Assembly: GCA_001897855.1 (NCBI GenBank)
Contig: MKUO01000007.1
Span: 330,079-394,078, forward strand
Length of the DNA: 64,000 nt
Direction: 5' to 3'
DNA from: Bacteroidetes bacterium 43-93
Lineage (GTDB): Bacteria; Bacteroidota; Bacteroidia; Chitinophagales; Chitinophagaceae
The notes under the pieces were generated by a model. The model did not search any database. It saw nothing but the letters and a program-made list of their open reading frames with translations, and was not told where the DNA came from. Position numbers and translations under genes: made by a program. Shown in pieces: positions 9,621 through 64,000 of this stretch (within the stretch, counting starts at the first letter, position 1; every line of letters begins with the position of its first letter).

Positions 9621-10004
9621 ACCTGCATATAAAGATTGGCAACATATAGTTGCGGTCTGCAGGCGCCATCAGCTTCTTTAAAGCGGTTTATTACAGGAAG
9701 ACACCATTTCCTTTTGCGTAGCAAATATAATTAGAAATCAAATAAGTTGGTTACTGTAACCGCTTAATGGTTCAGTTATAAATTTTTACCGCCTTCTCAA
9801 AAATCATTAATTTTGCCTGAGTTCTTTGACATATAAACCCTAAACAATTTCACATCCGCACACAAGAAAACCCAAAGCCTTAAAAGACTAGCAAAAACTA
9901 ACATTTTCTAACAAATATGACATTGCGTCATATCTAATTATTTGATTATTAATAATAATATTGCTTGTTTAGCGAGCCTGAAGTTTACCTATCTTTAAGT
10001 AAGA

Positions 10005-11375
10005 ATGTTATACGCTATTGTAGATATTGAGACCACGGGAAGTTTTGCCTCCAGCAACGGCATTACCGAGATAGCAATAGCGATACATGATGGTAAGCAA
10101 GTGATCCATTTTTATGAGACGCTTGTCAACCCTCAAAATCCCATCCCATTCTTCATCCAGAAGCTTACAGGTATTACCAATGAAATGGTAGCGCACGCAC
10201 CGTCATTTGCTGAGGTAGCCGGGCAGGTTCATGAATTGTTGCAGGACAAGGTATTTGTTGCACATAATGTCAATTTCGACTATTCTTTTCTCAAATACCA
10301 GATGGAGTCTGCAGGTTATGAGCTTACTACGCGCAAGCTATGTACCATACGCCTGGCACGTAAGATCATACCGGGTTATCGTAGTTATGGCCTGGGCAAG
10401 CTTTGTCACCAATTAGGTATCAATCTTACTAACCATCACCGCGCCGGCGGGGATGCACTGGCTACTGCAGAATTGTTCAGTATGCTGTTAGAAAAAGATG
10501 GGGAAGGTGTAATAGCCGCGATGCTGAAAGGACGTAACAGCGAGCAATACCTGCCGCCACATGTTCCTGTTGAAGAGGTAGAACGCTTACCTAAACAGCC
10601 TGGCGTGTATTACTTCTATAACAATACCGGTAAAGTAGTGTATGTGGGTAAGGCCAAGAATTTGTCGCGCAGGGTACGCAGCCACTTCAGCAATAACAAG
10701 GCCGGTAAGCAAAAGCAGGACTTCCTGAGAGATATTCATCGCATCAGCTATAAGGAATGTGCTACTGACCTGATGGCACACATACTGGAAAGTACGGAGA
10801 TACGTCGTCTGTGGCCCATATACAATCGCTGCCAGCGGGGATACCTGCCTAAGTTCGGGCTGTTTGTGTATGAAGACAGGCAGGGATATAAGCGTTTTGC
10901 TATAGAGAAGAACAAACACTACTTCAAGCCTATCCATACTTTCAATACGTTGATAGAAGGCCACAATCGCCTGCGGGAAATGATCGGTGAATTTGGATTG
11001 TGCGCTCGTTTATGCAACCTGGCTAAGAGTGCTGACTGCAGCAAAGGTGTATTTGCAGATAGCTGCACCGGCGAATGCAGCGCGTTGCTTCACATGGATG
11101 AATATAACAACAGAGTGGATAAAGCAGTTAATTGGCTGCAAATGCAGTTACCAACGTTTGCGTTTATAGACAAGGGTATTGCAGAGGATGAGCAGAGTTG
11201 CATCCTGGTAAGAAAAGGCAACTTCTATGGTATGGGCTATTTGAAGGACGGAGTATTGCCGGACGATCTCGATCAATTGCAGGAGCAATTAGAGCCCATG
11301 CCTGACAACGACTTCATACGCAACCTGGTGTACAAGCATGCAGTTAACTATCCTGAAAAGTGCGTGAATTTCTAA
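10005..11375 (+). CDS. DEDDh exonuclease + GIY-YIG (UvrC/Cho-like) nuclease fusion
   Basis: YAIVDIETTGSFASSNGITEIAI; GVYYFYNNTGKVVYVGKAKNLSRRVRSHF. Confidence 0.9.
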   Translation: MLYAIVDIETTGSFASSNGITEIAIAIHDGKQVIHFYETLVNPQNPIPFFIQKLTGITNEMVAHAPSFAEVAGQVHELLQDKVFVAHNVNFDYSFLKYQMESAGYELTTRKLCTIRLARKIIPGYRSYGLGKLCHQLGINLTNHHRAGGDALATAELFSMLLEKDGEGVIAAMLKGRNSEQYLPPHVPVEEVERLPKQPGVYYFYNNTGKVVYVGKAKNLSRRVRSHFSNNKAGKQKQDFLRDIHRISYKECATDLMAHILESTEIRRLWPIYNRCQRGYLPKFGLFVYEDRQGYKRFAIEKNKHYFKPIHTFNTLIEGHNRLREMIGEFGLCARLCNLAKSADCSKGVFADSCTGECSALLHMDEYNNRVDKAVNWLQMQLPTFAFIDKGIAEDEQSCILVRKGNFYGMGYLKDGVLPDDLDQLQEQLEPMPDNDFIRNLVYKHAVNYPEKCVNF

Positions 11376-13507: not shown

Positions 13508-14731
13508 ATGCCTGAATTAATGGAATCCATAACTGCCCCAAAGCCTCATTTGGTACGTTTGGTTAATTTTGCGCCCATGCAAATGCATGAAGTAAAGACA
13601 GCAGAGGATATTAAGCTGTTTTTGGAATTTCCGGTAAGCATCAATAAAGGCAACCCAAACTGGATACGCCCGCTGGATAAAGATATAGAAGAGGTATTTG
13701 ACCCAACCAGGAACAAGTTTTTCAAAAAAGGGGAATGTACGCGTTGGTTATTAAAGGATAATAACGGTAAAGTAATTGGTAAGATCGCGGCATTCGTAAA
13801 CAGGCAATATAAGAACGAACAGCCAACGGGAGGCATAGGTTTTTTTGACTGTATCAATGATCAGCAGGCTGCTAATTATATGTTCGATCATTGTAAGCAA
13901 TGGCTACGCGAACGCGGCATGGAAGCAATGGATGGCCCTATCAACTTTGGTGAGCGGGAACGTTGGTGGGGATTGTTGGTAGAAGGCTACCAGGAGCCAT
14001 TGTACTGTATGAACTACAACCCGGAATATTATAAAGACCTGTTTTATAACTATGGCTTCCAGGTATACTATGAGCAGTTATGTTTTGCCTTAAGAGTAAA
14101 AGATCGCCTGCAGGAAAAGTTCTATAGTGCATACGAGAAGTACTCCCAAATGCCTGAGTATAGTGCCAGGCGCATCAGGAAAAATGATATAGAGAAATAC
14201 GCTAAGGACTTCGCTTATATATATAATAAGGCATGGGCAAAACATGGTGGTGGTAAAGAAATTGAAGAACGTACGGTGGTAAGGATGTTCCAAACCATGA
14301 AGCCTGCGATAGACGAGGATCTTATGTGGTTCATTTATCATAACGAGCAGCCAATCGGGTTCTGGATCAACCTGCCTGATCTTAACCAGTATTTTAAGCA
14401 CATGAATGGCAGGTTTGGATTTTGGGAAAAGCTGAAGTTCCTTTGGTTGAAACGCTTTGGTAAATGTTCGCGATTTGTAGGCTTGGTATTCGGTATCATA
14501 CCTGAATACCAGGGTACAGGTGTAGATGGTTTTCTGATTATGTCCGGTGCAAACGTGATACAGCCGGCAAACAAATACCAGGACTATGAAATGCAATGGA
14601 TCGGTGATTTCAATCCTAAGATGGTGAATATTGCGGAACACTTAGGTACCTACCATAGCCGCAAACTGCAAACCTTACGTTACCTGTTTGACAGAACTAA
14701 GGAATTCAAACGCCATCCGATTATTAGCTGA
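13508..14731 (+). CDS. N-acetyltransferase-like protein
   Basis: 407 aa ORF; GNAT-like layout (DNNGKVIGKIAAFVNRQY..., GIIPEYQGTGVDGFLI). Confidence 0.6.
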   Translation: MPELMESITAPKPHLVRLVNFAPMQMHEVKTAEDIKLFLEFPVSINKGNPNWIRPLDKDIEEVFDPTRNKFFKKGECTRWLLKDNNGKVIGKIAAFVNRQYKNEQPTGGIGFFDCINDQQAANYMFDHCKQWLRERGMEAMDGPINFGERERWWGLLVEGYQEPLYCMNYNPEYYKDLFYNYGFQVYYEQLCFALRVKDRLQEKFYSAYEKYSQMPEYSARRIRKNDIEKYAKDFAYIYNKAWAKHGGGKEIEERTVVRMFQTMKPAIDEDLMWFIYHNEQPIGFWINLPDLNQYFKHMNGRFGFWEKLKFLWLKRFGKCSRFVGLVFGIIPEYQGTGVDGFLIMSGANVIQPANKYQDYEMQWIGDFNPKMVNIAEHLGTYHSRKLQTLRYLFDRTKEFKRHPIIS

Positions 14732-14749
14732 TTTAGGTATATTTATATT

Positions 14750-15310
14750 ATGCTAAAGCATTACCTTCTTGCTATTTTTGTATTGCTTATTGCTTTGTGC
14801 AAGGCAGACGCGCAGATCATTAAGGCAAATGTCCTTCATCCGGTATTCGCGGGAGGCGCATCAATTGCCTACGAATTTAAATCAGATGGAAGCTCAACAA
14901 CTAACATCTATTTGTCCGGCGGTAAAAAGAAGGATTTTATAGGGATATACGATGCGTACAAATTCTATAACCTGACCGTAGAACAACGTTTCTATACTAC
15001 CCATAAAAAGGCAAGGTCAGAAGGGTTCTTCATAGCACCTTATGCTAAGTTTATGTATCGTAATTACTTCAGAAAAGGAGTGGATGCAGGTATTTTGTTC
15101 TCAAGGCCTGATGTTGAATTGAGCGGTTATTCAATTGGATTAGGATGTGCCGCCGGCGGTCAATTCGCATTTACCAGGCATTGGCTTATAGATTGTTTTG
15201 CAGGTTTAGGTATGTCATATTATACGCAGAAGGAAATATCGTACGACAATGGATCATCCGGTTACCCGGATGTGAGATTGGGTGTTTCATTGGGTTATAG
15301 AGTCAACTGA
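14750..15310 (+). CDS. hypothetical exported beta-barrel-like protein
   Basis: signal peptide plus alternating beta pattern. Confidence 0.55.
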   Translation: MLKHYLLAIFVLLIALCKADAQIIKANVLHPVFAGGASIAYEFKSDGSSTTNIYLSGGKKKDFIGIYDAYKFYNLTVEQRFYTTHKKARSEGFFIAPYAKFMYRNYFRKGVDAGILFSRPDVELSGYSIGLGCAAGGQFAFTRHWLIDCFAGLGMSYYTQKEISYDNGSSGYPDVRLGVSLGYRVN

Positions 15311-39899: not shown

Positions 39900-40247
39900 T
39901 TGCGTATCCGGGTCAATTCGGTATTTATCAGCCAGGGTTTTGGGCGCTACTGTGCAATAAGCTACGGTAAGGATGTCTTTAAGCATTTCTTTGCGCACCT
40001 TTGGCAGAAACACATGTGTCCACCCATGGCTACCCCATTTATTTGGTACCGGGGCAATAACATCGTTATCGAAACTACAGAACACATTTTGATCGAGTGG
40101 TGTTAGCTTTACCGTCATTCGTTTTTCCTGCTCGTTCATGGTAGCAAATACCTTTTTGATTCGAAAAGAAGTAAGATCGAAATGCGGGGCTTCCGTTACA
40201 CCTTCAAATGATAAAGCAATTTCCCGGGCTGTTTTCGTGGTAACCAT
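39897..40247 (-). CDS. MmcQ/YjbR family protein
   Basis: AREIALSFEGVTEAPHFDLTSFRIKKVFATM...WGSHGWTHVFL. Confidence 0.8.
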   Translation of the reverse strand: MVTTKTAREIALSFEGVTEAPHFDLTSFRIKKVFATMNEQEKRMTVKLTPLDQNVFCSFDNDVIAPVPNKWGSHGWTHVFLPKVRKEMLKDILTVAYCTVAPKTLADKYRIDPDTQ

Positions 40248-45843: not shown

Positions 45844-45897
45844 AGAAAGATTTTGTAGAAATGAGAAATCGATTATTTTTGCAATCCCAATTGACAC

Positions 45898-45971
45898 TCC
45901 TCCTTAGCTCAGTTGGTTAGAGCACCTGACTGTTAATCAGGGGGTCTCAGGTTCAAGTCCTGAAGGGGGAG
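45898..45971 (+). tRNA. tRNA-Asn(GUU)
   Basis: full cloverleaf: TCCTCCT/AGGGGGA acceptor, GCTCAGTTGGTTAGAGC D-arm, CTGACTGTTAATCAG anticodon arm, GGTTCAAGTCC T-arm. Confidence 0.95.
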
Positions 45972-45982
45972 CACTGATTTAC

Positions 45983-46014
45983 AAGGAGTTGCATTCATTT
46001 GCAACTCCTTCTTT
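45983..46014 (+). terminator. hairpin downstream of tRNA-Asn
   Basis: aaggagttgc-attcattt-gcaactccttcttt. Confidence 0.7.
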
Positions 46015-46016
46015 AT

Positions 46017-46157
46017 TTTACTCGCACTGAAACCTGCAATAAACCTGTCTTGAAGTTTCGTTAGTCATATGTTTGAGTTCATTTGACCTCAATTTATAAG
46101 TCTTTTGTGGCAATTCTGTCACCTTTGTTTTCTTGTCACTATGTTATCATTACAGTA
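46017..46157 (+). repeat. island repeat copy A
   Basis: tttactcgcactgaaacctgcaataaacctgtcttgaagtttc...caattctgtcacctttgttttcttgtca...tatcattacagta. Confidence 0.85.
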
Positions 46158-46164
46158 ATGATGA

Positions 46165-46292
46165 AACGCTCCTGGTGGACTTCTGTGAGACGGACATGGT
46201 GCTCAAACCAACTGAGCTAAGGAGGAGTGGCTTGCAACTCAAAATCTGGTTCCAGCAACCGAGTGCAGGTTCGATTCGTTTCTGGACGTCCT
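46165..46292. other. tRNA-like relic region including an inverted copy of the tRNA-Asn 5' half
   Basis: gctcaaaccaactgagctaaggaggagt (46201-46228) is the reverse complement of actcctccttagctcagttggtttgagc; followed by actcaaaatctgg and caggttcgattc. Confidence 0.6.
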
Positions 46293-46439
46293 GAAAAAAT
46301 GAAGCAGTTATTTATTAAACCACGCAACTGCTTTTCTTTTTGCTGCCACGGTACTACAACATAATGTGCCCTATAGTACACTGTGAATAACTTTTCATAT
46401 TTGTACGTTATCTTTCCTGAGAGCTATTATCTATAGTAA

Positions 46440-47180
46440 ATGAATTTTATGCAACTGAATAGTCAAGGATTTTCAGCCATCAGAAAATATCTCGAACAAA
46501 AGGCTGATGATATAAGAGACCATGAAGGTAGAAATTGGGCAGTCATGGGTGTACCTATTCAAAATTATAGAGAGATAATTATAGGCGATAGGACTTTTTA
46601 CATCGCAGGCACAAACATATTTTGGGGTATACTTGAAGATGTGCTTCATAAAGCAAACGCAACCTTTCCCTTAAATTTTGGGAGTGGTAATGCGGTTAGT
46701 GTACTGCATGCCGTTATTAGGACAAGACCGATTTTTGGCTATACCAAAACGAAGGATTTAATAAGAAGATTATCAAATGAGGTGCATGCCTACGTGGTAG
46801 AACTTAAAGATGGTGTTGTAATTGATAAAATACTTAGAATTGATTGGTTTAGAAAACTTGACAAAACTCGCCGGAATGGGAAAAAATATGATTTTACAGG
46901 CGGGTTATTTCATCTTCTTAAACATTTCGAAATCGATGGCTATAACTTGTCCACAGGTACAAATGGGGCTAAAGTTCAGAATTTAATGTCAGTTATTCAG
47001 TATCTTACTCAAGCATTGTTTATTGAAGACGGGGAGCTTGAAACCGACGCGAAAACTTTGATAAGATATATAAGCGTAGACGATAAAAGGAGGCTAAAAT
47101 TTGTTTTTTATTTTAATACTACAACATTAATTTACTCTGTAACGACTGTTTTCCGAAGTGATTTCAAGAAAAAAATTTAG
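46440..47180 (+). CDS. hypothetical protein, no recognised domain
   Basis: 246 aa ORF with normal composition. Confidence 0.65.
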   Translation: MNFMQLNSQGFSAIRKYLEQKADDIRDHEGRNWAVMGVPIQNYREIIIGDRTFYIAGTNIFWGILEDVLHKANATFPLNFGSGNAVSVLHAVIRTRPIFGYTKTKDLIRRLSNEVHAYVVELKDGVVIDKILRIDWFRKLDKTRRNGKKYDFTGGLFHLLKHFEIDGYNLSTGTNGAKVQNLMSVIQYLTQALFIEDGELETDAKTLIRYISVDDKRRLKFVFYFNTTTLIYSVTTVFRSDFKKKI

Positions 47181-47219
47181 ATGGATATAAACTACGGGAA
47201 TAACCAACTTTCTTTTAAT

Positions 47220-47356
47220 TTTACTCGTACTGAAACCTGCAATAAACCTGTTTTGAAGTTTCTATAGTCAAATAATATGAGTCCGTTTGGCCTCATTTGT
47301 TAACTGTTATGCAATTCTGTCACTTTTGTTGTCTTGTCAATATTATCATTACAGTA
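47220..47356 (+). repeat. island repeat copy B
   Basis: tttactcgtactgaaacctgcaataaacctgttttgaagtttc...gcaattctgtcacttttgttgtcttgtca...tatcattacagta. Confidence 0.85.
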
Positions 47357-47410
47357 TTCAACAAAAATGTCCATCCAAAGTGCCATCGGCTTTTATTGCA
47401 CTAATATTTG

Positions 47411-49693
47411 CTACAAACTCATTTCGCTATACATTGAAATTACTTTCCCATCACTTTCTTTTATAGCAGCGACTATTAGTTCCATGATATCCTTCAGAAA
47501 TTGCTTTGATTGCTGGGTTAATTCATCTTTCGGTATGGGGGCAACCTCATTGTATAGCTTTTTTATTTCTGCTGCTCTCAATTCTGCAGAGCCTTTACCT
47601 TTATAATTATATGCATTCTGCCATTCCGCAATCTTATTGAGTTTAATAGCCTTTAGAGCATAGTCAAACATTTTCTTACTGATACTTTGTTTAATATCAT
47701 TGATACATTTTTGCTTTTCCTCATCAGTCGGATTGGATGGATGCCAGTCTGCTGGTGAAGACAAAAAATTGCTGATTTGGCTATTAAAATAGCTACCAAA
47801 GTCTGAGATAGGCATCAATTCTTTGTATTCTGTATCTCCTCTGTATCCAAGCCTCAACGACAAGGCTTTAATCCTCGAGAAATGTTCTTTAGGAATGGCA
47901 GGAGAGCCATACAAATAGCCCTTCCAGCGCGTGTCAAAGTCAACTGCAGCTTTTCTGATTTTGAATATCAATGTTGAAATATCATATGTAGGCTGACAAG
48001 AACTTTGAACCGGAACAATCGCAAGTTCCAGACTATTAATAAATTTTCTTAGATCGTTTATAGTGGGCTTATATTTCTTATCATCATTTAATTTTTCATC
48101 GATGTTCGCTAAGTAATAGGAGCATTTATGGAGCTGATCAATGAAAAATTTATTGACCTCGTAGTCCATTTCCGATTTTAATCTACCTAGCAAATGGTCT
48201 ACGGATCCAAAAACGTGGTTTATTTTATCGCTGCGCTTCGGCAAGTTATCACCTTTTACAGCATCAAAATGGGTAAAACAGATAAACAGTTTGTCTGAAT
48301 GTCCAGTTATAGCCACACTTTTGATAACCGCATATGATGTGGCAAGCATTGGATTCTGCGAGTTATCTACAAGCACGATAGCATCTGTTGCCTCAAACTT
48401 TTTTATTGTTTTAAAGGGAAGATTAGTGTTTGTATCTGATATATGCCCAAGACCCTCGCCATCAAAAATTACAAGCTTCGGTATATTGTCTAAATAATCA
48501 GGCTTGAAGGGCCCTTCAACCCTCATGCCAGAAACTAAAGGAGTTAACAATTTTCCAAATAAAGCGGAGTAATTACTCGAAAAAAAGCGAATTGACTGCA
48601 AAAAAACACTCCTATCTGATGTTTCAAGGTGCCAGTGAATCGGCCAACCAAATTTTTCAGTTACTAGCTCAATGGTGTTTAACTGTTTAAAACGTGCCTT
48701 AATTTCATCGATGATTTCATCAATCAAATTATACAGATCGTCACCGTCATAGTCTTCAAGATTTGATAAAATTATCTCTTCAAGTATATTTTTCTCATCC
48801 TCTGATAGGCTATTGTTTCCGAGATATTCGGTCGTAGTTGCGTGAACGACATCTGCAGTAATTTTTTTTATTTCTTGTAAGAAATCATTAATCTTCGATT
48901 CGTAGCCTTTTTGTTCATCCTCTGACACACTTATGTTGTCAACGATAAACGTTTCAATTATAGACTCATTTTCCTCTTCATCAAATTCATAGTCTTCAAT
49001 AGACCTAATTTGAATTTTCCCAAGAATATAGCCTAATTTGAAGCGCTGGTCTTTATCCTCTAAAAAAACCCTTTGTAAGTGCTGGTCGTCTTTCCGCGAA
49101 AAGTACTCGGTCATTGATTTGTGGATTGTATCCTTAATCATTTGCCGCGTTTCATTTTCGGTGAAAAAGCTTACAACACCCTTATAGAGTCCTTCTGAAA
49201 GAATAATTTCAGTGTCAAACACCGTCGTTCTAGCGGTTGATGTGGCTGGAAACCTCTCGGTAATTGGGTTTGTTCCCATCAATTGTCTTAATAAGGTTGT
49301 CTTGCCAGCACCTGTTGCGCCTAAGAGAAGAACGCTTGAATATCCACTTTCTCTATTTTTTATTGGAAGAATGCCGTTTCTTACTGACTCATAATCCTTT
49401 AAAAGGTAATTTACGCCCTCGTAAAAGATGTCAACTATCGAGGCATCAAGCCTTTGCTGGGCTAGCTGCCGAGCTGATGGCTCCCAATATTGCGCGTCTG
49501 AGAGCAACGTATTCATTTGCTGGACTAGTTCTTCGGCCTTTACCTCATCTTTGGTTCCAAGTCCCTTCCGTATCTTTTTTCCAGTTTTCCCGGAGGAGTC
49601 TTTAATTAAAGGATGTCTAAATTCAAGCACCCAAAAAGCATCTGATTTAGACTTCGGTTGTAGTTTGCGAGCGGTATATTTTTTTACATCCAT
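47411..49693 (-). CDS. large predicted P-loop GTPase with integrase-arm-like N-terminus
   Basis: G1 LLLGATGAGKTTLLRQLMG; Thr-rich switch I TSTARTTVFDTE; G3-like IFDGEGLGH; G4-like CFTHFD. Confidence 0.7.
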   Translation of the reverse strand: MDVKKYTARKLQPKSKSDAFWVLEFRHPLIKDSSGKTGKKIRKGLGTKDEVKAEELVQQMNTLLSDAQYWEPSARQLAQQRLDASIVDIFYEGVNYLLKDYESVRNGILPIKNRESGYSSVLLLGATGAGKTTLLRQLMGTNPITERFPATSTARTTVFDTEIILSEGLYKGVVSFFTENETRQMIKDTIHKSMTEYFSRKDDQHLQRVFLEDKDQRFKLGYILGKIQIRSIEDYEFDEEENESIIETFIVDNISVSEDEQKGYESKINDFLQEIKKITADVVHATTTEYLGNNSLSEDEKNILEEIILSNLEDYDGDDLYNLIDEIIDEIKARFKQLNTIELVTEKFGWPIHWHLETSDRSVFLQSIRFFSSNYSALFGKLLTPLVSGMRVEGPFKPDYLDNIPKLVIFDGEGLGHISDTNTNLPFKTIKKFEATDAIVLVDNSQNPMLATSYAVIKSVAITGHSDKLFICFTHFDAVKGDNLPKRSDKINHVFGSVDHLLGRLKSEMDYEVNKFFIDQLHKCSYYLANIDEKLNDDKKYKPTINDLRKFINSLELAIVPVQSSCQPTYDISTLIFKIRKAAVDFDTRWKGYLYGSPAIPKEHFSRIKALSLRLGYRGDTEYKELMPISDFGSYFNSQISNFLSSPADWHPSNPTDEEKQKCINDIKQSISKKMFDYALKAIKLNKIAEWQNAYNYKGKGSAELRAAEIKKLYNEVAPIPKDELTQQSKQFLKDIMELIVAAIKESDGKVISMYSEMSL

Positions 49694-49853
49694 GTTATTC
49701 CTGATTATTCCGCAAATGGACGAAATAATTTTGGAATAACAAGGAATAATTCGAATTTATTTATTTATTATGTTCTTTTGATTGTTTTTCAATTATTAAG
49801 AAATATTTTATAGTTTGTGCATTTAACAAGAAACTAGTACCCAATAGTTGCTT

Positions 49854-49987
49854 TTCAACTCGTTCTTTATCTTACTTGCGCTGAAACCGCAGTAAACTTT
49901 CCTTGAACTTCTTTTTATTCTATGTGTTCAACATATTCTGTGTGTTTAACATTAGTTGCATCTTTGTTTACTTGATTAGATATGTGA
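49854..49987 (+). repeat. island repeat copy C (more diverged)
   Basis: ttcaactcgttctttatcttacttgcgctgaaaccgcagtaaactttccttgaacttc, alignable with post-tRNA sequence. Confidence 0.6.
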
Positions 49988-50081: not shown

Positions 50082-51224
50082 ATGATCTATTTAGATAACA
50101 ATGCGACCACAAGAATTGACCCGAGGGTTTTAGATAAAATGATGCCCTATTTGACGGAGGAGTATGCTAATGCTTCCAGTAATCATGCGTTTGGGCAGAC
50201 ATCTAGTGAAGCCGTAAAGAAAGCTAGGTTGCAGGTAGCAGAATTGATAGGATGTGAATCTAACGAAATTATTTTCACTTCGGGGGCGACGGAGTCGATT
50301 AATATCGGTATTAAAGGTTTAATGAAAAGCGAAGCTAATAACGGCAAGCACTTAATTACCGTCGCAACAGAACACCCTGCGGTTTTAGATACCTGTAAAC
50401 ATCTTGAAGCTAAGGGATATGACGTTACCTATTTGCCTGTAAACGAAGACGGACTTATCGAGTTAGATCAATTGAAAAAATCTTTAAGGCCGGATACCGT
50501 ATTGGTTTGTGTAATGTATGCTAATAATGAAACGGGCGTTATCCAGCCGATTAAAGAAATATCAAAACTAGCGCATGAGAACGGATCGTATTTTATGACA
50601 GATGCCACACAGGCTGCCGGGAAAATAGATATTGATGTTAATGCTATAGGTATTGATATATTGGCCTTCTCGGGTCATAAAATATATGGACCAAAGGGTT
50701 CTGGTGTATTATATATCAGAAGTAGACAGCCATTTAAAGTAAAACTGGCATCCATACTTCATGGAGGCGGACAGGAAAAGGGTATCCGCAGTGGAACTTT
50801 AAATGTTCCTAATATTGTAGGATTAGGCCAAGCAGCCTTTTTAGCAAAGCATGAGATGGCAATAAATGATTATAATGTGAGGTTATTGAGGGACTATTTG
50901 CAGGGAGCGTTGTTGAATATTGAACATAGCAGGCTTATTGGGAATGACTTAAGTCGTATGTATAACGTTTGTAGTATATGCTTCAAAGGCGCTGATGCAG
51001 ATGCGGTAATGATGGGTTTGGAAAACATATCATTATCAAACGGATCCGCATGTTCCTCTACATCAGTAGAGCCATCCCATGTATTGAAGGCTATGGGGCT
51101 CAGTGATGAGGACTCGTTTTCGACCATCAGATTCAGCCTAGGTAAATTTAATACAAAAGCAGAAATTGATATTGTCATTAATGCAGTAAGCAGTACCGTG
51201 CAAGAACTAAGACTCCTAGCATAA
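50082..51224 (+). CDS. dndA: cysteine desulfurase, DndA/IscS-like
   Basis: IYLDNNATTRIDPRVL; AFSGHKIYGPKGSGVLYI (PLP Lys); NGSACSS catalytic Cys; adjacency to dndCDE. Confidence 0.88.
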   Translation: MIYLDNNATTRIDPRVLDKMMPYLTEEYANASSNHAFGQTSSEAVKKARLQVAELIGCESNEIIFTSGATESINIGIKGLMKSEANNGKHLITVATEHPAVLDTCKHLEAKGYDVTYLPVNEDGLIELDQLKKSLRPDTVLVCVMYANNETGVIQPIKEISKLAHENGSYFMTDATQAAGKIDIDVNAIGIDILAFSGHKIYGPKGSGVLYIRSRQPFKVKLASILHGGGQEKGIRSGTLNVPNIVGLGQAAFLAKHEMAINDYNVRLLRDYLQGALLNIEHSRLIGNDLSRMYNVCSICFKGADADAVMMGLENISLSNGSACSSTSVEPSHVLKAMGLSDEDSFSTIRFSLGKFNTKAEIDIVINAVSSTVQELRLLA

Positions 51225-51361
51225 AAATATTGGATGCATATAATCCATTTATATTTAAGCAATGGATTGTAGCTATTAACAAGCAATTCACATAAATCCC
51301 GGTAATATCTCCGGCAATGGGAATTGGCATTTACAAAGAGTAATTTTACGTACAAATCATT

Positions 51362-52675
51362 TTGATGCAGGATCAAATTAAATCTATCATCGCTGAGATT
51401 CAAGCTCAATATTTTGAGGATGACAATAATCGACCTTGGATCGTTGGCTTTAGTGGGGGGAAGGATTCAACTATGCTACTTCAATTAGTGTGGTACGCTT
51501 TGATCGAGTACCCGGCAGAACTTAGAAAAAGAAAAATATATGTTGTCTGCAATAATACATTGGTAGAAAACCCAAAAATTCTGGCATATACTGAAAAAGT
51601 CTTAGATAAGATACAAAAGGCTGCTGTTAAGAAGTCAATGCCCATTACGGTTCATCGCACCACACCGAGATTAGAAGATACTTTTTGGGTTAACCTAATC
51701 GGCAAAGGGTATCCGGCTCCTAATAATATTTTCAGGTGGTGTACAGAACGTATGAAAATCAATCCTACGACGAAATTTATTTTGGAAACGATAAGTGAAG
51801 AAGGTGAAGTTATTATTCTGCTGGGGACACGAAGCGATGAGAGCAGCAAACGAGCCAGTTCTATAAAAAAATATGGTATAGAAGGTCAAAGACTAAGAAA
51901 GCACGTGCTACCAAATGCATTTGTCTTTGCGCCAATCAAAGATGTACTGACTAAAGAAGTTTGGCAATATCTATTGCAAATGCCATCTCCATGGGGTGCA
52001 TCTAATAGAGAACTTGTCACCTTGTATAATAATGCAAGTGGTGGCGACTGCCCCCTGGTGGTAGACATCACGACACCTTCTTGTGGTAACAGCAGATTCG
52101 GATGCTGGGTTTGTACTGTCGTTAATAAAGACAAATCCATGGAAGCACTGATAGATAACGGAGAAGAATGGATGGAGCCCTTATCTATGTTGCGAGATAC
52201 GTTGGCTATGTCTCGTGATAGCGAAAAATACAGGGAGAGAAGACGTCGTGACGGTACTGAGAAAGAAGGAACGCTGGGGCCGTATAAAGCATTTTTTCGT
52301 GCCGAAGTGCTAGAAACACTTCTTAGGGCCCAAAAAGCCATTCAAGACGAGCAGCCGGAAATTTCTCCTTTGATTACTTATCAGGAGTTGGTTGCGATAC
52401 AGGTGATATGGTACAGGGATAACCTATTTCTAAATAATGTATCTGAAATATACCAGAAGGTATATGGACGAACCATTAATTTGGATTCAGTCAGTGAAGG
52501 TATCGCAAGTGAGAAACGGCTTTTGCGGGAGGTCTGTAAAGAAAATCCTGACGATTTCAATGAGATAAATAAACTATTGGAAATACAAAAGACGAAAACA
52601 ATCCTAATGAATAACAGAGGTTTGCACAATGTTTTGGAAAATCATCTTGAGAACTACATTAAGAATAGTAAATAA
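51362..52675 (+). CDS. dndC: DNA phosphorothioation protein DndC (PAPS reductase-like)
   Basis: WIVGFSGGKDSTMLLQLVW (PP-loop); CGNSRFGCWVCTVVNKDKSME Cys cluster. Confidence 0.93.
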   Translation: MMQDQIKSIIAEIQAQYFEDDNNRPWIVGFSGGKDSTMLLQLVWYALIEYPAELRKRKIYVVCNNTLVENPKILAYTEKVLDKIQKAAVKKSMPITVHRTTPRLEDTFWVNLIGKGYPAPNNIFRWCTERMKINPTTKFILETISEEGEVIILLGTRSDESSKRASSIKKYGIEGQRLRKHVLPNAFVFAPIKDVLTKEVWQYLLQMPSPWGASNRELVTLYNNASGGDCPLVVDITTPSCGNSRFGCWVCTVVNKDKSMEALIDNGEEWMEPLSMLRDTLAMSRDSEKYRERRRRDGTEKEGTLGPYKAFFRAEVLETLLRAQKAIQDEQPEISPLITYQELVAIQVIWYRDNLFLNNVSEIYQKVYGRTINLDSVSEGIASEKRLLREVCKENPDDFNEINKLLEIQKTKTILMNNRGLHNVLENHLENYIKNSK

Positions 52676-52677
52676 CA

Positions 52678-54762
52678 ATGTTTATAAGCAATATTACTCT
52701 TGAAGATTTTAAAATTTATTATGGTCATCAAAAAGTCGTATTTCCACGTGATCCCCAAAAAAATGTATTTATCATTTCCGGTAATAACGGGTTTGGGAAA
52801 ACAACATTACTTAATTCGTTAGTTTGGTGCTTGTATGGAAAATTGATGATTGATGTTGATGATAAATACCGTTCGGAAATTTATGATGCAGGCGGGTATA
52901 AAAAATTCGCAGCTGGTAATCTAAATAAATATGCTCAGGCTAAAGGGCATTCTTCCTACAGCGTATCTCTGGCCATTACGGATATTTCCATTCCTAGTTT
53001 GTCTTGCGATGAACTAATTATTAAGAGGACATTCGATTTGAGGCGACAGGAAGATAAGATAGAGATATTATTAGATGGCAAAGAGAATGAGTTAACTAGA
53101 GAAGTTGGCCCTGATATCTTTATTAACGATTTTATTTTACCAAAGGAAATAGCTAAATTTTTCTTCTTCGATGCTGAGAAGATTGTGTCTTTAGCTGAGA
53201 TGAAATCAATTGATGACAAACGGAAATTGAGTTTGGCTTATTCTGAAGTCCTAGGTATAAAAAAATATGAGGACCTTAAGATCAACCTAGAAGAAATAAG
53301 AATACGACTAAGGAAGGATACTGTCTCAGGTGCCGAAGGTAAAAAATACGCTCAATTGCAAAAGGAGCTATTACAATGTCTGACCCTTATTCAGGAGTAT
53401 GAAGATCAGATCACCGCTTTAAAAGATGAAAAAATTACACTTAAGTCTTCGTCGGAGCAGTATCAGATAAAATTGATACGGGAAGGGAATTCTCTAACAA
53501 TTGACGAGCTTAAGTTATTAAGAGAAAGAAAGGATAAGCTGGCTAAGGAAGCTGAAAAACTTCGTGAGCAATTAAAAGAGATGATGGAGCTAGCTCCATT
53601 TGCGATAAGTGGGAAGCTGTTGGAACGAACCTATCAACAAGTCGCGTCAGAGTATTTGCAGGCTAAGCAATCTGTAGATCCAACTGTACTAAAGGCCAAA
53701 CTCCAGAAAGTAAAAAAGGACCTTGCTAAAGAATTCCAACACCTGCGTTTAAGCAATACAGCTTTAAAACAGCTATCTCAGTCCTTCTCAGATAGTATTG
53801 AGAGACATTTTGCAATTGCACATCAAGCAGACCTTGCCAAAACCGTTCTGGTAAACTTTACAGATAGTGAAAAACATGAGTTTGACGCAATCTACAACAA
53901 CCTAAAATATTCATTCAGTAGGGCATTTAAAGATCTGACATCTACCTATAAAAACAACCGTGTTGCATTCAACAAGGTGATCCGCCAGTTATCTGATGCA
54001 GAGGCGAAAGAAGATGACATACTAATACGAGAAATTCGTCAACAAAAAACTGAGCTAGATGATCGAATCGATCAAATTGACGAGCGGATCAACTACTTGA
54101 ATTTTGAAATCGGCAGCCTTCAGAAGGAGAATGCAAACAAATCAAAGTTGGTTAGTGAGCTAGAGAAGAAGATTGCGTTGCTTGACATGGACAAAGAAAA
54201 AGACGAAGTTGCTGTGAGACTTATTAGTGAATTAAACGCATTTCTCGTTAGTCTGAAGTTGGAAAAGAAAATATCACTCGAAAGTCGTATTCGAAAGGAG
54301 TTGAACGTCTTGATGCATAAGCGCGGTTTTATAAACAAGGTTAGTGTTGAAATATCAAACGAGTTGATCGATATACATCTGCTGGATCGAAAAGGTAATG
54401 TTATCGCCAAAGAAGCACTTTCAAAAGGGGAACAACAACTTTATGCTACTGCCTTGCTGAAGTCCTTAGTTGATGAATCAAATATCCAATTTCCTGTGTT
54501 TATCGATTCCCCTCTTCAAAAGTTTGACAAGACGCATTCCCATAATATCATTAAGGATTTTTACCCCGGCATTTCAGACCAGGTAGTGCTTTTCCCGCTA
54601 ATCGAAAAGGAAATGACCTATGAAGAATTTGAAATGTTGGTACCAAAAATTAACAAGGCTTACCTCATAAAGCAGGAGGAAGAATACCATTCTGATTTGA
54701 TCGAGGTACAGCCAACACAGTTGTTCAAACAAGCTAAAGAAATCTATGAGTACGTTCGCTAG
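52678..54762 (+). CDS. dndD: DNA phosphorothioation protein DndD (SMC/RecF-like ATPase)
   Basis: IISGNNGFGKTTLLNSLVWCLYG; coiled coil; ALSKGEQQLYATALL; FPVFIDSPLQKFD. Confidence 0.92.
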   Translation: MFISNITLEDFKIYYGHQKVVFPRDPQKNVFIISGNNGFGKTTLLNSLVWCLYGKLMIDVDDKYRSEIYDAGGYKKFAAGNLNKYAQAKGHSSYSVSLAITDISIPSLSCDELIIKRTFDLRRQEDKIEILLDGKENELTREVGPDIFINDFILPKEIAKFFFFDAEKIVSLAEMKSIDDKRKLSLAYSEVLGIKKYEDLKINLEEIRIRLRKDTVSGAEGKKYAQLQKELLQCLTLIQEYEDQITALKDEKITLKSSSEQYQIKLIREGNSLTIDELKLLRERKDKLAKEAEKLREQLKEMMELAPFAISGKLLERTYQQVASEYLQAKQSVDPTVLKAKLQKVKKDLAKEFQHLRLSNTALKQLSQSFSDSIERHFAIAHQADLAKTVLVNFTDSEKHEFDAIYNNLKYSFSRAFKDLTSTYKNNRVAFNKVIRQLSDAEAKEDDILIREIRQQKTELDDRIDQIDERINYLNFEIGSLQKENANKSKLVSELEKKIALLDMDKEKDEVAVRLISELNAFLVSLKLEKKISLESRIRKELNVLMHKRGFINKVSVEISNELIDIHLLDRKGNVIAKEALSKGEQQLYATALLKSLVDESNIQFPVFIDSPLQKFDKTHSHNIIKDFYPGISDQVVLFPLIEKEMTYEEFEMLVPKINKAYLIKQEEEYHSDLIEVQPTQLFKQAKEIYEYVR

Positions 54763-55147
54763 TATAAAAACATCCGCTGCCAATAAGGAAGTTGTTACTG
54801 ACCTGACTCGCAAACTAGGCTTGGGCCCTGAAAATGTAATAGCTAGATTGGCAATGTGTTATTCGTTATCGACTGATACAAAGTTCACAGTAAAGGATGT
54901 GCAAGATTCTAAGGGAAAGGAATATAGCCGAAATGTTTTGTTTGGTGTTAACTTTCCTCATTACTTGGCTATGATATGCACACATTACCAAGTATATAAA
55001 ACAGACAAGGATATACCCAAATATATCAAGATGCACATCGACCATGGTTTGCAGCTTATTGATGAGGAACTTAGACGTAATATTACTTTAACAGGGTTCG
55101 ACTTTATGGTTCACAAAATTGAAGCGGGGCTGAGTTGTTTTAAATAG
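54746..55147 (+). CDS. dndE: DNA phosphorothioation protein DndE
   Basis: 133 aa; ENVIARLAMCYSLS, ICTHYQVYKTDKDIPKYIKMHIDHGLQLIDEE; overlaps dndD 3' end. Confidence 0.88.
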   Translation: MSTFASIKTSAANKEVVTDLTRKLGLGPENVIARLAMCYSLSTDTKFTVKDVQDSKGKEYSRNVLFGVNFPHYLAMICTHYQVYKTDKDIPKYIKMHIDHGLQLIDEELRRNITLTGFDFMVHKIEAGLSCFK

Positions 55148-62910: not shown

Positions 62911-63594
62911 ATGGACAACGCAATTCAAAAATTACTCGACTTTCTAAAGACCAATCCAAAGTCAAACAAAGCAGCAATCACCATTGCAACAGGCTTGGCT
63001 GGTCTTCACCTATTTAATGTTTTAAAGAAACTGCAGGCCGATGGACTTGTTGAACAGCACGAAGGTGAGGAAAAAACCTATTCGTTGGTTGAGCAGGAAA
63101 ACGAAGAATCAACAGAATCCGCAAACGCAACATCTATGACAGATGAGCCAAAGGAAACTGTTGCAGGAATTGATAATGAGCCGCCGTTTCAACAAGACAA
63201 AACTGAAGATGCCAACAAGGGAACAGAATCTGTACAAAAGCCAATTGTCAAATCAACTGGGCGAGACAGTTCAAAACTTACTTTCAATGGACAAGAATAT
63301 GGCAAAGGCCCTTTGGTGCGTGCTGTTGTTGCACAATATGTAGCGGATAATCCTGATACCGATTATAACAAACTCAAAGAGATGTTTCCTGATGACCTGC
63401 TGAAGCGCTTTGGCATATTCCAGGATGAAGCAACTGCGGCTGTGATTGCAAAGAAAGGTAACAGATATTTCACCAAACCAGAGCAGGTCATCAAACTCAA
63501 GGACAAAACTGTTGTCGTGTGTAATCAGTTCACATTGGCCAATATTCAACCGTTCCTGAAAGTGGCAAAAGAACTTGGATACGAAGTAAAGTGA
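62911..63594 (+). CDS. winged-helix N-terminal hypothetical protein with acidic linker
   Basis: IQKLLDFLKTNPKSNKAAITIATGLAGLHLFNVLKKLQADGLVEQ; C-terminal globular region FNGQEYGKGPLVRAVVAQYV. Confidence 0.65.
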   Translation: MDNAIQKLLDFLKTNPKSNKAAITIATGLAGLHLFNVLKKLQADGLVEQHEGEEKTYSLVEQENEESTESANATSMTDEPKETVAGIDNEPPFQQDKTEDANKGTESVQKPIVKSTGRDSSKLTFNGQEYGKGPLVRAVVAQYVADNPDTDYNKLKEMFPDDLLKRFGIFQDEATAAVIAKKGNRYFTKPEQVIKLKDKTVVVCNQFTLANIQPFLKVAKELGYEVK

Positions 63595-63620
63595 GGCCAA
63601 ACGAACCCACTTTTATAAGA

Positions 63621-63653
63621 AAGCCGACCCAACAACAAGTGGTCGGCTTTTCA
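63621..63653 (+). terminator. hairpin with T-tract
   Basis: aagccgacccaacaacaagtggtcggcttttca. Confidence 0.65.
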
Positions 63654-63666
63654 TTTGCAAAGATGA

Positions 63667-63996
63667 TTAGAGCAGGCCGGTTACTGAATTAACGATCAAG
63701 CCTATTATTCCGTTTTTGAACTTGTCCAGTTGAATCTTTGCTATGCCTAATTGTTCTAATGCATGCATTTCCGTTAACTCTTCTCTGCCCTTTAAGAGAA
63801 AATCTAAATCTGCGGCTGACAAATCACCGTTCTTAGCATCTTCAGTCCAACTTTTTAAATCACCCTTCAATGTTTTTAGTGCTTTTTGGCCTTCTGCGGT
63901 TGCTTGCTCGGCATATTTGCCGACAGTTTCTTTAGCAATTGAAGAAACACCATCCTTTAATGTTTCAAATAGTTCATCGAATTCAAGAGTTGACAT
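63667..63996 (-). CDS. hypothetical small protein
   Basis: 109 aa ORF, helical, converges on terminator. Confidence 0.55.
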   Translation of the reverse strand: MSTLEFDELFETLKDGVSSIAKETVGKYAEQATAEGQKALKTLKGDLKSWTEDAKNGDLSAADLDFLLKGREELTEMHALEQLGIAKIQLDKFKNGIIGLIVNSVTGLL

Positions 63997-64000
63997 GAGA

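Follow-up and report, generated by a model that had tools for sequence, protein, structure and literature searches.

Probable left ends of a tyrosine-integrase island family behind a tRNA-Asn gene of Bacteroidetes bacterium 43-93

A tRNA-Asn gene of Bacteroidetes bacterium 43-93 is followed by three related sequences, here called copies A, B, and C, which raises the question of what these sequences are and how the region that they divide has grown. A preliminary description took them for old junctions left behind by serial integration at one tRNA attachment site. The window, that is, the whole 64 kb stretch of DNA that was analyzed, is the final 64 kb of contig C7 (394,078 bp) in a genome of 27 contigs (G000, below "the own genome"). 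Because the window reaches the end of C7, the island runs off the assembly, and its own integrase and right end are without a physical link to the window.

Three related sequences and their cargo

The order in the window is tRNA-Asn, copy A, an ORF (46440-47180, +), copy B, an NTPase gene (47411-49693, -), copy C, and dnd genes from 50082 (+); a different cargo thus follows each copy, in agreement with the preliminary description. The tRNA-Asn(GTT) gene (45898-45972, +) is the presumed integration target, which an incoming element would regenerate. The att core, a 45 bp direct repeat running from the anticodon loop to the tRNA 3' end, occupies 45929-45973 (+), and further copies of it were found at position 13542 of own contig C8 (100%), at a junction on own contig C25, and at both ends of a complete island in the genome G011. 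The terminator hairpin of the tRNA (45974-46016, +, assigned by sequence inspection) is part of the left end, of which copy A spans 45998-46196 (+). Copy A contains the tandem repeat CGCACTGAAAC / TGCAATAAAC (46022-46046, +), a candidate integrase arm site that is common to right ends, and is followed by an inverted tRNA-Asn 5' segment of 32 bp (46198-46229, -), which is identical to 45895-45926 at 31 of 32 positions.

Between the inverted segment and the first ORF lies the 3' half of a tRNA-Leu(CAA) with its terminator and the start of a tRNA-Leu-type left end (46237-46358, +). This stretch was 78% identical to the tRNA-Leu loci of three relatives, and the same joint of an Asn end and a Leu end was present on contig C50 of G010 (L056). 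With a tRNA-Leu-type end in front of it, the 46440 ORF would be one cargo unit derived from an element with another tRNA target. The ORF itself, cargo unit 1, encodes an orphan protein of 246 aa that matched no Pfam or PADLOC family, and a search for its homologues found none. Copy B (47204-47353, +) keeps the arms, with the tRNA core and the inverted segment absent, and precedes cargo unit 2, a P-loop NTPase of 760 aa with a weak nSTAND_NTPase5 / PtuA-like match. Copy C (49856-49923, +, with a weak continuation to 49991) retains a terminator remnant without the tRNA core and is followed by cargo unit 3, the DndA, DndC, DndD/PbeC-like, and DndE phosphorothioation genes (50082-55147, +). Genes for a GHKL-ATPase, an Mrr-like nuclease, and a DndB-like protein lie 3' of these. 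The assembly breaks at 62911-64000 (+), where an island-associated gene and a sequence repeated near the end of C25 are located. Positions 63600-64000 were 96% identical to the end of C25 (L047, 13439-13852), and this shared end sequence was probably the cause of the break.

A and B were alike along their length up to ACAGTA, with approximately 81% match over 150 bp, and their local alignment score was 170, compared with a maximum of 29 in 500 shuffles. The corresponding values were 66 versus 35 for A and C and 37 versus 35 for B and C (500 shuffles each), the latter being marginal as direct support. A profile for which only left ends located elsewhere had served as training set found A at 46000-46194 (E 3e-18), B at 47206-47301 (E 3e-12), and C at 49856-49922 (E 2e-7), and the best match of the same profile in 20 shuffled windows had an E of 9. 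The shuffles and the outside-trained profile thus bear out the three repeats, including the homology of B to A along its length and a copy C that aligns better than shuffled sequence. Copy C is real, but its independently supported part is approximately 68 bp and not the 134 bp first assigned to it, as the remainder to 49991 was recovered only with C in the training set. C matched a left end on contig C18 of G010 at 79% over 58 bp, that on C25 at 70% over 90 bp, and A at 66% over 133 bp, and in pairwise comparison it did not group with A and B. The view that C is a worn copy of A is not supported, as the left ends of G010:C18 and C25 are equally close to C.

Arm repeats, integrases, and island ends

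A, B, and C each probably represent the left end of a different member of one family of tyrosine-integrase islands. An intact left end of this family consists of a tRNA 3' half starting at the anticodon loop, the terminator hairpin, and the tandem repeat CGCACTGAAAC/CGCAATAAAC, a putative arm-type site to which the integrase would bind. The left-end sequence was sought 3' of tRNA-Asn in relatives and was found there: the same left-end sequence lies 3' of tRNA-Asn 3' halves both on other contigs of the own genome and in relatives. The same arm repeat is found in right ends, which adjoin tRNA-Asn 3' halves on C25, on C8, in G011, and on contig C1 of G014, and tRNA-Met 3' halves on contig C24 of G010 and in G013. 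In G007 and G006, the islands located at this tRNA-Asn carry different arm repeats (TTTCTCCCA; TTTGCACGA).

The integrases encoded on own contig C9, in the G011 island, and in the G013 island were 60-74% identical to each other, whereas those of G007 and G006 were at most 32% identical to them. Because arm repeats and integrase clades go together, we read the repeats as arm-type integrase sites and A, B, and C as element left ends; direct repeats of apparent arm type occur at both island ends and are matched to the integrase clade. The C9 integrase matched PF13102 and PF00589 and has the same architecture as the Bacteroidota-type Phage_int_SAM_5 / Phage_integrase integrases. Among these, the C9/G011/G013 clade is distinguished by a clade-specific arm repeat and by an identity of at most 32% to the integrases of other islands at this tRNA.

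No left end was found in phage and plasmid records, and the arm-pattern matches in viral contigs fell in unrelated sequence without left-end context, mostly in one recurring context. Two family right ends, at position 334818 of own contig C1 (L104, 6813-6980) and on contig C99 of G010 (L103, 6500-6659), have no tRNA fragment beside them. In another genus, a possible small element of 4.5 kb has the same arm repeats at both ends (G154, contig C189; L101, 315-4820).

Could the repeat instead belong to the host, as a regulatory or structural sequence (terminator plus downstream region) that happens to follow tRNA-Asn and was duplicated with neighbouring genes? It does include the tRNA terminator and lies directly 3' of the tRNA gene. 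However, relatives with the same tRNA differ in downstream sequence and in arm repeats, the homology of G014 to the window ends at the tRNA 3' end, the right end of the element has the same arm repeat, and copy B sits between two convergent genes, so a host repeat is very improbable. The position of every copy before a cargo unit would also suit attC-like or IS-type repeats of a cassette system that does not use the tRNA core. This is scarcely credible, since none of the tyrosine recombinases seen is of an identified integron type, the combination of core and arms fits a heterobivalent tyrosine integrase, and a tRNA 3' half always adjoins intact copies.

Stacking at tRNA-Asn and core-less ends

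A complete element is present in a relative. On contig C39 of G011, tRNA-Asn is followed by left-end arms at 40201, an integrase gene at 65836, right-end arms at 73184, and then a 45 bp tRNA-Asn 3' half. This complete island is 33 kb long and has nuclease and methylase genes; the intact tRNA and the identical 45 bp 3' fragment lie 33 kb apart, as in a tRNA island. In the own genome, tRNA-Asn 3' fragments are present on C25 and C8, contigs other than that of the tRNA. C25 has a right end, a tRNA-Asn 3' half, and a left end, followed by a GmrSD-type nuclease gene, and C8 has a junction of right end, tRNA-Asn 3' half, and left end at 9979-10324 and the further 3' half (45 bp) at 13542. Fragments are found at C25, C8a, and C8c, and none at B or C; the C8 element also contains a truncated left end (C8b).

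Upstream of the tRNA, the window and G014 were 88% identical over 1188 bp, a match that breaks off precisely at the 3' end of the tRNA. What lies beyond tRNA-Asn in G014 was recovered, at 89% identity, on own contig C8 from position 15001 onward. The break on the left and the shared arms of the right ends support the view that the repeats mark island ends, and the junctions on C25 and C8, together with the complete island in G011, support serial integration at tRNA-Asn. The search for an empty site succeeded in part: G014 supplies both flanks, but approximately 5 kb of other sequence lies between them, and the site is therefore not strictly empty. The search for an integrase and a right att repeat had a similar outcome, with a complete set in G011 (integrase at C39:65836), an integrase on C9, and fragments on C8 and C25, but with none of the own-genome items physically joined to the window.

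C7 and C25 have sequence in common at their ends, and C8 and C9 at their starts, and an island-associated gene followed by DUF6876, the order seen in G011, links C7/C25 to C8/C9. A tandem array running from C7 to C8, the order of the middle contigs aside, is well supported.

A left end termed D lies on own contig C11 (L004, 9640-9880), where it follows a degenerate tRNA-Asn at a second, dead island site. Copies dispersed at unrelated sites had been named as a finding that would speak against island ends. Unlinked left ends do occur, but the degenerate tRNA-Asn in front of D is in keeping with the att reading, and a simple dispersed repeat was rejected for both A and D, each of which lies 3' of tRNA-Asn or its remnant.

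The suggestion that different divergence reflects different ages did not hold. Identities were 81% for A and B, 77% for A and D, 76% for B and D, and 78-79% for A or B versus G014:C1, and only the D and G014:C1 left ends were closer (98% alike). As unlinked left ends are as diverged as A and B, the differences existed before the elements arrived and give no ages for the insertions, and dating by divergence was abandoned.

We propose that members of this family use the anticodon loop of tRNA-Asn (and tRNA-Met) as their site of recombination, regenerating the tRNA, and that their cargo would be mainly defence genes. New elements would enter the tRNA core ahead of older ones and thereby give tandem arrays of right end, tRNA 3' half, and left end, the arrangement seen on C25 and C8. 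Internal junctions in the window may then have lost the core and the neighbouring right end, leaving the core-less B and C between cargo units; the order in the window would be integration first and deletion after. Such a loss would remove the separate excision site of the older unit and lock its cargo into one larger unit. As a whole, the region is likely to have grown by repeated insertion into tRNA-Asn followed by internal core loss.

No tRNA core or right end scoring above shuffles was found in the sequence upstream of B or C, and 4 of 200 shuffles reached the best score for a core before B, whereas the controls, C25 and D for the core and C25 for the right end, scored far above shuffles. 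Lacking both parts, B and C appear to be fused remnants rather than preserved att junctions, and neither the preliminary view of them as old junctions left behind nor that of intact att junctions can be kept. On contig C1 of G013 (L099, 11190-17250), two right-end arm copies lie 5.9 kb apart, and a tRNA-Met 3' half is present only after the second; the core-less right end sits beside cargo and is thus a counterpart to B and C in the window.

The missing core and right end, and the likeness of A and B along their length up to ACAGTA, would also be accounted for if homologous recombination between left ends, or their local duplication, had given rise to B and C, with cargo swapped via the approximately 130 bp shared end. 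We consider this unlikely. The 81% identity of A and B is no higher than that of independent elements (the comparisons with D given above), which makes a recent local duplication of A unlikely, and the intact right end/core/left end junctions on other contigs of the genome show that the integrase route operates.

The inverted tRNA segment and known tRNA islands

The segment at 46198-46229 is an inverted tRNA D-arm/5' segment within the left end, and it is conserved across nine such ends, which come from two genera. When the reverse complement of each tRNA's own 5' end was searched for within 700 bp downstream at 44 tRNA loci, a score of at least 15 was obtained at 6 loci, all of them family left ends, and the maximum in the upstream controls was 10. 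A weaker inverted segment (score 14) occurs 3' of tRNA-Leu in a third genus (G171). A pattern search of 399 genomes returned seven places, six of which were family left ends, and the reversed control returned none. A 21 nt part of the segment had a mean identity of 94% across the nine left ends, compared with 40-45% for the 24 nt flanks, although the 94% overstates the constraint because these left ends were found by their likeness to tRNA.

The segment lies 26-527 nt before the first cargo start codon in eight of the nine left ends (26-245 nt in seven). Beyond the D-arm, its acceptor part agrees with the tRNA of the unit in question, namely tRNA-Met in one case and tRNA-Asn in four. Folding of the segment was not unusual (z -0.6 to 0.2), and Rfam gave no family at cut-off except tRNA itself, so a structured RNA finds no support. 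An origin by inverted recombination at the palindromic anticodon stem is not supported either, as the segment ends short of the core. The distal part of the left end resembled the right end only weakly, and in some pairs only.

By title and abstract, no paper in the open literature was found to describe an island end with an inverted tRNA segment, and we know of no description of a conserved one. We offer only tentatively that the segment is a working part of the island, for example a leader or antisense sequence ahead of the first defence gene, pairing with the tRNA or its cleaved 5' fragment, or a site of the integrated state; in the last case, it would form an inverted repeat with the regenerated tRNA.

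Tycheposons, by their description, resemble these islands in combining integration at tRNA genes with modular cargo. Growth of islands by stacking at a tRNA is already known from Islander (PMC4383910), whose tRNA-targeted islands have a tyrosine integrase, a regenerated tRNA, and a displaced 3' fragment by which the far end is recognized. Crossover centred on the anticodon is among the common classes in that collection, and tandem arrays are listed, 125 with two or more islands and 4 with three or more (PMC4383910). The islands described here are alike in integrase type, regenerated tRNA, 3' fragment, and, probably, tandem arrays. In contrast, the internal ends B and C of the window have no tRNA fragment, and the family left end has an added inverted tRNA 5' segment. 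Without a tRNA fragment, ends such as B and C would be missed by fragment-based island finders.

With its fused ends that lack a core and its inverted tRNA segment, the region represents a variant of known tRNA island stacking. For the growth of defence islands, this would mean that units whose ends match accumulate at a single tRNA, lose their internal cores, and become one cargo block. The conserved inverted segment provides a testable link between the island and its target tRNA; if it is a working part, cargo expression or island state would be tied to that tRNA.
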